From an uncultured Clostridia bacterium (GTDB lineage: Bacteria; Bacillota; Clostridia; Oscillospirales; Ruminococcaceae), in the NCBI GenBank assembly GCA_947627235.1, contig CANQVG010000003.1, forward strand, positions 1 through 64,000: a DNA stretch of 64,000 nucleotides. The letters are read 5' to 3'. Both the position numbers and the translations under genes were made by a program. Every line of letters begins with the position of its first letter. Position 1 is the first letter of the stretch. Shown piece after piece: positions 4,653 through 6,447 of this stretch. The notes under the pieces are model-generated. The model saw only the letters and a program-made list of their open reading frames with translations, was not told the origin of the DNA and made no database searches.

Positions 4653-4668
4653 GTCCGTTTGTACGGAC
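4653..4668. promoter_or_regulatory. Inverted repeat, possible second operator
   Basis: GTCCGT-TTGT-ACGGAC is a perfect 6+6 inverted repeat ending 9 bases before the -35 box of the lysis cassette. It could bind another regulator. It is not a LexA box. Confidence 0.45.
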
Positions 4669-4677
4669 TCAAAAGAC

Positions 4678-4705
4678 TTGACGAACGTTTGTTCGCGACT
4701 ATAAT
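4678..4705 (+). promoter_or_regulatory. Sigma70-type promoter of the lysis cassette
   Basis: TTGACG (4678-4683), a 16-base spacer and TATAAT (4700-4705), followed by the cassette start about 50 bases on. The spacer is filled by the SOS box. Confidence 0.8.
4682..4695. promoter_or_regulatory. LexA (SOS) box
   Basis: CGAACGTTTGTTCG matches the Gram-positive LexA/DinR consensus CGAACNNNNGTTCG at every fixed position. It overlaps the last two bases of the -35 box and fills most of the spacer, so LexA bound here would block RNA polymerase. Induction by DNA damage is inferred. Confidence 0.85.
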
Positions 4706-4754
4706 AGTAATTAACGGCTTCGGCCTTGACATAGATTCATCACAATGAAAGGAC

Positions 4755-5123
4755 TTGATAAAAATAATCGAAAACACACTGGTAATCAGGGTAGAGGAAC
4801 GCACGCCCGTGTTGGCGGCGGGAAGTCTTCCCGTATCCGGAAGCCGCGGCTGCGACTCCTGCATGTTCATTGTTTCGGAGGACGACTGGGGCGGACTTGA
4901 AAAGTCGGCGGTATTCTGGCAGACAGCCGACAAAAGATACGAAGTCCCGCTCGGCAAAGGCGACACCTGCCGCATACCTGACGAAGCTCTTTCGGAGGAC
5001 GGTCAGCTTTTTATCGGGCTTCTTGGCAAAAAAGGAAATGTTCTTCAGAACACAAAGGCGCTGCTTGTGCCGCTCTGCGAGGGCGCGCGCGAGGGCAATT
5101 CGAAGGTGGGCGAAGCCGTATGA
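4755..5123 (+). CDS. Phage baseplate-like protein, lysis cassette gene 1
   Basis: A 122-residue protein resembling the N-terminal domain of phage baseplate or tail-tip proteins found just before lysis genes in Firmicutes phages (pattern YEVPLGKGDTCRIPDEAL, then LFIGLLGKKG). It has no signal peptide or membrane segment. The start is uncertain: the best in-frame candidate is TTG at 4755, but AAAGGA ends only one base before it. Its last four bases overlap the next gene (ATGA). In the cassette it is the only structural-type gene and may be a leftover or have been kept for another role. Confidence 0.6.
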   Translation: MIKIIENTLVIRVEERTPVLAAGSLPVSGSRGCDSCMFIVSEDDWGGLEKSAVFWQTADKRYEVPLGKGDTCRIPDEALSEDGQLFIGLLGKKGNVLQNTKALLVPLCEGAREGNSKVGEAV

Positions 5124-5392
5124 ACGAAATCTTAGCCGGTATCGCCGCAGCGGCGTCGGCGCTCGGAGGCTCCGCCGCAATAATAGGAGCGGTCACTGCG
5201 GCTGTGCGGTGGCTTGACCGTCAGTCGAAGCAGGACTGCGATATACAAAACATCAAAAAAGAGAATATGATGATAGTGTCGGCGCTGTCTGCCTGCCTCG
5301 ACGGTCTCACACAGCTCGGCGCAAACCACTCTGTCACCGACGAAAAGGAAAAGCTCGACCGCTATCTTCTCGAACGCGCGCATAGCAACTGA
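5120..5392 (+). CDS. Small holin-like membrane protein, lysis cassette gene 2
   Basis: A 90-residue protein with one hydrophobic segment rich in Ala and Gly (about residues 5-30) followed by a charged cytosolic helix (RQSKQDCDIQNIKKEN). This is the layout of small phage holin or holin-associated proteins. It overlaps the preceding gene by four bases and precedes the LLH-type holin. The exact family is not recognised; the holin role is inferred from size, topology and place. Confidence 0.6.
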   Translation: MNEILAGIAAAASALGGSAAIIGAVTAAVRWLDRQSKQDCDIQNIKKENMMIVSALSACLDGLTQLGANHSVTDEKEKLDRYLLERAHSN

Positions 5393-5403
5393 GAGGTGAG
5401 ATA

Positions 5404-5706
5404 ATGATTGACCTGACACCGATTTTTGAAGCCCTCATAACCATAGCCGCTTCGCTTATCGCAGCCTTTTTGGTACCATGGCTCAGGGAAAAATGCGGCT
5501 GCGAGCGTCTTGAACGGATAAAGGTATGGGTACGTGCGGCTGCTGCCGCCGCAGAGCAGCTATACAAAGGCTCCGGACGCGGAGGCGAGAAGCTTGAATA
5601 CGTACTCGACTTCCTTGAAAGCCGCGGCTTCGGACTTGACCGAGACAGCCTTGAAAAGCTCGTCGAGGCGGAGCTGTACGCGCTCGGCATTAAACAGCCC
5701 GATTGA
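5404..5706 (+). CDS. Phage holin, LLH-like
   Basis: A 100-residue protein with an N-terminal membrane helix (about residues 9-27, ALITIAASLIAAFLVPWL) and a long charged C-terminal half containing KVWVRAAAAAAEQLY and DFLESRGFGLD, as in LLH-family holins. It would open the membrane to let the lysozyme out. GAGGTGAG lies just before the ATG. It sits between the small holin-like gene and the GH25 lysozyme. Confidence 0.75.
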   Translation: MIDLTPIFEALITIAASLIAAFLVPWLREKCGCERLERIKVWVRAAAAAAEQLYKGSGRGGEKLEYVLDFLESRGFGLDRDSLEKLVEAELYALGIKQPD

Positions 5707-5719
5707 AAGGACAGATTTT

Positions 5720-6358
5720 ATGCAGATAAAGGGCATCGACGTTTCGAGATACCAGAATCCGAAGAAGCTCGACTATAAAGCGCTGAAAGACGCGGGCTAC
5801 GGCTTTGTGATGATTCGCGCGGGCTATGGCATGTATCCGGCTCAGTATGATACCGCGTTTGAAGAACACTGGAAAGCCGCCGGCAGGGCGGGGGTGTGCC
5901 GCGGAGCGTATCACTACAGCTACGCCCTCAACACCGACGAGGCAAAGCGCGAGGCGGACTGCTTTCTCAGATGGATAAAAGGAAAAAAGCTTGAATATCC
6001 CGTCGCGTTTGACATCGAAGACGCCTCACAGAAGTCGCTTTCCGACGCCCGTCGCACCGACATCGCTCTCGCGTTTATGAGCAAAGTCGAGGACGCGGGG
6101 TATTACACAATGATATACTCCTCGGCGAACTGGTTCAGCAAAATGCTTGAGCAAAACCGGCTCAGACATTTTGACGTGTGGCTTGCCTGCTACACCGACG
6201 AAAAGCGCCGTGACGAGCTTTACAACGGCAATATCGGCATCTGGCAGAAAAGCTCGTCGCTTATGCTTCCCAAGGTATACGGCGGCAGGCTCGACGAAAA
6301 CGTGGCGTATAAGGATTATGAGTCGATAATCCGCCGCGCGGGACTGAATAATAGGTAA
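5720..6358 (+). CDS. GH25 lysozyme (endolysin)
   Basis: A 212-residue N-acetylmuramidase. It starts with the family signature GIDVSRYQ, keeps the catalytic acids in VAFDIEDA (DIE) and the surrounding AGYGFVMIRAGYG and GAYHYSYA motifs, and ends at the barrel without a cell-wall-binding domain. It lacks a signal peptide, so it needs the holins encoded just upstream to reach the wall. The start at 5720 follows GAAAGG; a longer frame upstream overlaps the holin gene and is rejected. It is the last gene of the cassette and is followed by a terminator. Confidence 0.92.
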   Translation: MQIKGIDVSRYQNPKKLDYKALKDAGYGFVMIRAGYGMYPAQYDTAFEEHWKAAGRAGVCRGAYHYSYALNTDEAKREADCFLRWIKGKKLEYPVAFDIEDASQKSLSDARRTDIALAFMSKVEDAGYYTMIYSSANWFSKMLEQNRLRHFDVWLACYTDEKRRDELYNGNIGIWQKSSSLMLPKVYGGRLDENVAYKDYESIIRRAGLNNR

Positions 6359-6416
6359 AAAGCCGACGCTTGCGGCAAAAGACCGTTCACAAGGACGGCG
6401 ACGTCTCCGGCATATG

Positions 6417-6447
6417 AAAAGGCGCCCAGTTGGGCGCCTTTTTTTAT
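6417..6447. terminator. Bidirectional terminator
   Basis: GGCGCCC-AGTT-GGGCGCC (6421-6438) with T-run to the right and A-run to the left, serving the lysozyme and the convergent membrane-protein gene. Confidence 0.9.

Follow-up and report, generated by a model that had tools for sequence, protein, structure and literature searches.

What does a phage-type lysis operon do among the ordinary genes of a Clostridia chromosome, and what would switch it on? The window analyzed here is a stretch of 64,000 nucleotides with which contig C3 of a draft genome (G000; 1.65 Mb, 97.6% complete) begins. Its cassette, at 4755-6358, consists of four tightly packed plus-strand genes, g1 to g4, all with open frames. 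The features of the cassette and its promoter are as follows, with protein identities to the counterparts in G016, a second species of the genus.

4653..4668, no strand: second operator GTCCGTTTGTACGGAC, the exact palindrome GTCCG-TTTGTA-CGGAC, upstream of the −35 hexamer and separated from it by 9 bp
4678..4683, plus strand: −35 hexamer TTGACG, kept in G016
4682..4695, no strand: LexA box CGAACGTTTGTTCG, 0 mismatches, spanning the last two −35 bases and most of the spacer
4700..4705, plus strand: −10 hexamer TATAAT, kept in G016
4755..5123, plus strand: g1, 122 aa, TTG start, no counterpart in the G016 cassette
5120..5392, plus strand: g2, 90 aa, hydrophobic N-terminus by eye, 67% identical to G016
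5404..5706, plus strand: g3, 100 aa, LLH superfamily holin, 73% identical to G016
5720..6358, plus strand: g4, 212 aa, GH25 endolysin, 70-71% identical to G016 and 61% to a prophage of G023
6416..6443, plus strand: terminator-like hairpin and T run, 3' of the cassette

The original prediction described a four-gene unit between ordinary genes with no adjacent phage gene, and the open reading frames and profile matches at the locus bear this out. The neighbours are host genes: a GtrA family gene on the minus strand lies upstream, and lipoprotein-like and DegV-like genes, both on the minus strand and labelled from reading their translations, lie downstream. Neither decay nor further phage genes, the marks of an ordinary prophage or a prophage end, were found there. 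The predicted gene identities fared less evenly. The GH25 lysozyme is confirmed as g4 (GH25 profile, E 7.6e-31; PHROG endolysins also match). Of the two genes called holin-like, g3 is indeed a holin (Pfam Phage_holin_6_1/Holin_LLH, E 4.9e-10; PHROG holin, 8.4e-22), and for g2, which gave no significant match in family profile searches, the label is unsupported. The supposedly baseplate-like g1 has a sole match, phrog_19695, a PHROG family without assigned function; a baseplate role is unsupported, and the single-sequence AlphaFold model of the protein is poor (mean pLDDT 45). A scan with g1 returned no relatives in viral contigs.

The cassette promoter, TTGACG-16-TATAAT at 4678-4705, agrees with the consensus at 11 of 12 positions, and the LexA box that had been placed within its spacer is perfect, reaching also into the −35 hexamer. 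The box type, GAACN4GTTC/T, is reported from Clostridium difficile as well (PMC4234289). The one lexA gene found in G000 carries the box GAACGTTTGTTT in its promoter, and the cassette core GAACGTTTGTTC differs from it by one base, the last; as at lexA, the cassette box lies over the promoter. Likewise, GAACAAATGTTC stands just upstream of a Pol IV-like gene (labelled from reading), and GAACATACGTTC lies in the promoter of a divergent operon on contig C2. A LexA-type operator is common to the cassette, lexA, the Pol IV-like gene and a sigma-like operon. By its pattern the box is no rarer than chance would make it: the window has one GAACN4GTTC where 1.44 are expected, and the 14-mer of the cassette box is found three times in the 1.65-Mb genome, on both other occasions inside long frames, as compared with 8 times for the reversed control. 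Nor did placement inside or outside frames discriminate, as 16 of the 17 GAACN4GTTC sites examined (of 20) lie in frames of at least 100 aa, the cassette and Pol IV sites included. We judge the box to be real because of its position, the matching box in the genome's own lexA promoter and its conservation in a second species, and it is on these grounds, not on rarity, that a chance match was set aside. From this promoter architecture we infer that DNA damage would induce the cassette. Across the genome as a whole there are 20 GAACN4GTTC sites per strand and 57 of the reversed control, a shortage that would fit selection against stray LexA sites.

Is this arrangement kept in related genomes? Among 31 genomes of the genus, the cassette is present in two, G000 and G016. 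In G016 a lysine-methylase-like gene (from reading), GtrA, g2-g3-g4, a lipoprotein-like gene and DegV mark the same site, and the promoter, TTGACG-17-TATAAT, has the LexA box GAACAAACGTTT at the corresponding place in the spacer. Across g2 to g4 (67%, 73% and 70% protein identity, respectively) pN is 0.18-0.22 and pS 0.63-0.86; these genes are under purifying selection at near-saturated synonymous divergence. Phage-type lysis genes, at least g3 and g4, are stable with a conserved LexA box in the chromosomes of two species, and this orthologue at the same site rules out a random, decayed prophage end in one strain. Relatives of g3 occur in seven of the 31 genomes, and the other five places (G003, G004, G018, G023 and G028) are phage contexts by eye; the holin matches in G003, G018 and G028 belong to ordinary prophages adjoining a metK-like gene, and the G004 match stands with the same phage genes. 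A LexA-like box within 800 bp upstream of an LLH holin was found at the two cassettes and at none of the other 48 of 50 distinct places (56 loci were scanned, six of which repeat a single place; the sequence upstream was shorter than 800 bp at four places and shorter than 400 bp at three of these), which rules out LexA control as a general trait of LLH-holin modules. No cassette genes were found in viral contigs bearing the operator or promoter pattern (20 and 38 stretches), and a single viral stretch with a distant TerL match (28%) was read as chance. In G009 the site is bare, GtrA directly adjoining the lipoprotein gene; in G003 and G010, the closest genomes to G000 by recA, the cassette is absent and the locus rearranged. 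G000 and G016 do not fall together in the recA tree, so the distribution requires losses or transfer.

The predicted feature began at 4653, which is the exact start of a palindrome that the prediction did not mention. The G016 promoter carries GTCCGATTGTACGGAC, likewise 9 bp short of the −35 hexamer, and the alignment of the two cassette promoters shows a conserved block, GTCCG(T/A)TTGTACGGAC. The only other exact copy in the G000 draft, at C12:11365, precedes a TerS operon, and the two sites share 24 identical bases, GTCCGTTTGTACGGACTCAAAAGA. The exact palindrome also precedes this head operon in G003, G004, G009, G010 and G018; in G016 a palindrome with two mismatches stands 626 bp before TerL, the G000 equivalent standing at 618 bp. 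The cassette is thus not the stand-alone unit of the original prediction: its promoter has a second operator, which is found also before a phage-derived packaging operon and before recA. For the same reason, the proposed release of colicin-like cargo, toxins or vesicles is less likely than that of gene transfer agent particles.

The operon 3' of the palindrome on C12 encodes TerS (Pfam Terminase_2), TerL, portal, a fourth protein, the major head protein and three further products. The fourth gene, whose best match is phrog_16951, a PHROG family without assigned function, reads by position as a protease or scaffold gene. An argS-like gene flanks the operon on one side and ilvD/ilvC-like genes on the other (from reading translations), and no integrase was seen by eye in these flanks. 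No LexA-like box precedes the operon, and no full tail set was found in it.

The probable explanation, we propose, is a domesticated-phage gene transfer agent resembling FpGTA; the cassette would be its detached lysis operon, under the control of LexA and of a second damage-linked regulator, probably a WYL protein. We favor this reading because the exact palindrome precedes both the cassette and the head operon, its only two exact copies in the draft; because Ruminococcus albus KH2T6 carries an endolysin within its head operon; and because published agents offer precedents for the split and for one regulator on both promoters. FpGTA, the gene transfer agent of Faecalibacterium prausnitzii (Borodovich et al. 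2026, published January 2026, PMC12946183), is described as a 10.5-kb head operon (TerS, TerL, portal, scaffold, capsid) and a second operon of 5.5 kb, in one strain about 125 kb distant, that encodes baseplate, tail fibre, RBP, holin and endolysin; according to its authors it lacks replication genes, and about 9 kb of host DNA is packed into its 40-nm capsids (PMC12946183). The same paper reports packaged fragments of 4.6 kb in R. callidus. Compared on the gene content so described, the present system is alike in having a compact head operon of TerS, TerL, portal, scaffold-type and capsid genes (G000:C12) and a separate holin and endolysin operon in gut Clostridia. It is unlike FpGTA in that the lysis operon has g1, itself absent in G016, and lacks the baseplate, tail fibre and RBP genes, and in that it shows a LexA box and a shared palindrome, belongs to a different genus and has particles predicted from its genes. 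The main text of the FpGTA paper contains neither "lexa" nor "promoter" and mentions SOS once, in general terms. In RcGTA of Rhodobacter capsulatus, GafA is reported to bind at three promoters, those of the structural genes, of the lysis cassette and of its own gene (PMC6363796), which is the arrangement that we propose here for one regulator; RcGTA differs, by that account, in its GafA/CtrA control, starvation trigger, unrelated proteins and merely indirect action of LexA.

The proposed sequence of events would be as follows. LexA would repress the cassette until DNA damage inactivated it, and the same damage would engage the palindrome regulator, most likely the WYL protein, acting either as activator or as repressor. 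The head gene products would then package host DNA and, once LexA was gone, the holin and GH25 endolysin would lyse the same cell and release particles with host DNA. Double control of the lysis promoter would stop lysis from firing without the rest of the program.

How widespread is the packaging operon? At least 591 stretches in a species-level genome set carry relatives of the G000 TerL; a TerL relative alone does not prove a gene transfer agent. In the best 80 of these at least 591, all five core genes are present at 73 loci; of the seven without the full set, four lie on contigs of 3-9 kb and three lack a TerS match. The carriers among these 80 are Ruminococcus (including named R. flavefaciens and R. 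albus strains), Oscillospiraceae and rabbit-gut Clostridia, and in many Ruminococcus loci the capsid gene comes ahead of the fourth gene. In R. albus KH2T6 the last gene of the head operon encodes a GH25 endolysin with 45% identity to g4, and no other of these best 80 loci has a g4 match; the small ORF preceding that endolysin does not match g1 (E 0.087). The palindrome is absent from 72 of 79 head-operon loci scanned, and of the seven that have one, two are records of the same genome and another probably has its site by chance; it is therefore a feature of part of the genus.

Could the cassette instead serve a purpose unrelated to particles? It might be a LexA-controlled suicide unit of the explosive-lysis type, releasing DNA, vesicles or public goods, with the palindrome read by a general damage regulator. 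Such a unit would use the same lysis parts under the same SOS control, and the closest relatives of G000 possess head genes without the cassette. The wider occurrence of the palindrome also speaks for it. The palindrome precedes recA at five (G000, G009, G016, G020 and G022) of 28 placed loci, one of the 28 having only 144 bp upstream, and it is missing from 23, including those of G003, G004, G010 and G018, which carry it before the head operon; in G009 it also precedes addB. A conserved gene of about 185 aa, gene X, has the palindrome nearby in 14 genomes of the genus (L207, L223, L225, L211 and L219 are among the loci), a count drawn from 19 loci chosen because X was seen there. Its protein has no Pfam, PHROG or NCBIfam match, and an AAA ATPase lies beside it in G000, G003, G010, G014 and G028 (from reading). 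With any six central bases, GTCCG-N6-CGGAC occurs at 116 sites in the 31 genomes versus 60 in the reversed control, so many of these sites must be chance; G000 has five, four of them among the matches listed. The distance from palindrome to −10 differs among targets. The operator is common to the cassette, the intact TerS-TerL-portal-capsid operon, recA and gene X, and is degenerate at a DUF896-WYL locus; because it also precedes recA and gene X, it probably marks a wider, damage-linked gene set and not the particle system alone. Against a unit unrelated to particles, the draft genome has just two copies of the exact 16-mer, each in front of a phage-derived operon, the R. albus endolysin sits inside a head operon, and the division into head and lysis operons has the published precedent of FpGTA (PMC12946183). 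On balance we consider release of this kind unlikely.

We next weigh a second alternative, that the cassette lyses cells on behalf of a tailocin or bacteriocin encoded elsewhere in the genome. Such systems typically combine SOS control with a holin-endolysin pair, which gives this idea its appeal. Just one phage-derived operon was found to share the operator, however, and it encodes terminase, portal and capsid and not sheath or tail; we regard a tailocin or bacteriocin as distinctly improbable. PBSX of Bacillus subtilis is an SOS-induced, contiguous defective prophage with a sigma-like positive factor; the present system differs in its scattered parts and in the LexA box on its lysis promoter. 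PBSX also packages host DNA, as noted in the FpGTA paper (PMC12946183).

The G023 prophage (L037) resembles the cassette in its LLH holin (48% identical) and GH25 (61%) families and in the order small protein, holin, GH25, and differs in that the cassette is detached from a prophage and has a LexA box, none being found within 800 bp upstream of the prophage holin. That the cassette is merely a remnant kept by chance, the lysis genes of a G023-like phage with the phage's own SOS promoter, undecayed so far, would fit these identities and the loss of g1 already in G016, but is hardly credible given the same site in two species, frames open at saturated synonymous divergence, both operators kept, and the box-less prophage holin.

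Several observations weigh against the reading of the cassette as the lysis operon of an FpGTA-like agent. The distribution is narrow, with the cassette in two of 31 genomes; most recA genes and most head operons have no palindrome before them; a LexA-like box is lacking before the G000 head operon; G016 has no g1; and no tail set was found. G003 and G010 keep the head operon and the palindrome without the cassette, and therefore must lyse otherwise or not at all.

Which protein would read the palindrome? In G016 the palindrome accompanies a DUF896-WYL regulator operon, and the orthologous WYL protein of G000 (77% identical) is encoded on contig C2. The divergent promoter of this locus has a perfect GAACN4GTTC and the palindrome in all three located copies (G000, G003 and G016), the palindrome being degenerate in G000 and G003. 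We predict that the WYL protein is probably the regulator. DriD and PafBC are WYL regulators of damage responses apart from LexA (PMC12340889, PMC6789036, PMC11804915), and DriD is reported to have a site before its own gene (PMC12340889). The present case is like them, as they are described, in combining a WYL regulator with a palindromic site before its own gene, as in DriD, and at a minority of loci before repair genes; it is unlike them in that the target set includes phage-derived operons. When eight further genomes were searched around gene X (13 stretches), a WYL gene was found nearby in G003 only. The G000 WYL promoter is flanked on its opposite side by a small operon, which encodes a sigma-70-region-4-like protein. 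This protein is a candidate activator of the particle genes, by analogy with Xpf of PBSX. We also note that at L044:972-1486 (G000:C2) a LexA box precedes the sigma-70-region-4-like operon, divergent from DUF896-WYL.

More broadly, and only tentatively, gut Clostridia such as Ruminococcus and relatives may possess an ancestral split gene transfer agent within their damage response, in which LexA and WYL-type tiers would jointly switch recA, packaging and lysis, and damaged cells would donate genome fragments to kin for repair. The circuit described here is concrete, a lysis promoter with a LexA box and an operator common to the packaging operon and recA, and the packaging operon extends more widely than Faecalibacterium. 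If the proposal is true, DNA damage in the gut, such as quinolones cause, would lead fibre degraders to lyse and to donate genes to one another. Among the titles and abstract openings listed from the open-licence literature, no LexA-controlled lysis operon of a gene transfer agent in Clostridia was found; FpGTA was the one matching system among gene transfer agents tied to Ruminococcus or Oscillospiraceae, and within that literature it was described in PMC12946183 only.

Finally, the individual head-operon loci yielded a number of minor observations. Between −700 and −560, LexA boxes before head operons were counted at three of 77 loci, with five of 78 in the next bin and 0 to 2 in the others; we do not rely on them as a general feature, and the four listed between −560 and −500 are one sequence, GAACGGTGGTTT. 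In three Ruminococcus-type genomes (L271, L274 and L330) a LexA-like box, GAACATATGTTC and two weaker forms, stands at −631 from TerL, before TerS, and these boxes may confer direct LexA control there. Between the operator and TerS, about 525-765 bp upstream of TerL, there is a conserved inverted repeat, GTTGYAC..GTRCAAC, often with a T run behind it (L257, L258, L318 and others). The strict pattern occurs at 17 of 75 loci with paired changes, GCAC/GTGC to GTAC/GTAC, and by its form it looks like an attenuator or a second operator of the head operon. Three loci from human faeces (L342, which is MT835508.1, L341 and L343) were deposited as "Bacteriophage sp." and look like pieces of bacterial chromosome; in L342, ribosomal-protein, RNA polymerase and Rnf-like genes surround the head operon by eye. 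Likewise, a genome titled Alistipes sp. (L286) carries this Clostridia-type head operon and is probably a mislabelled MAG.
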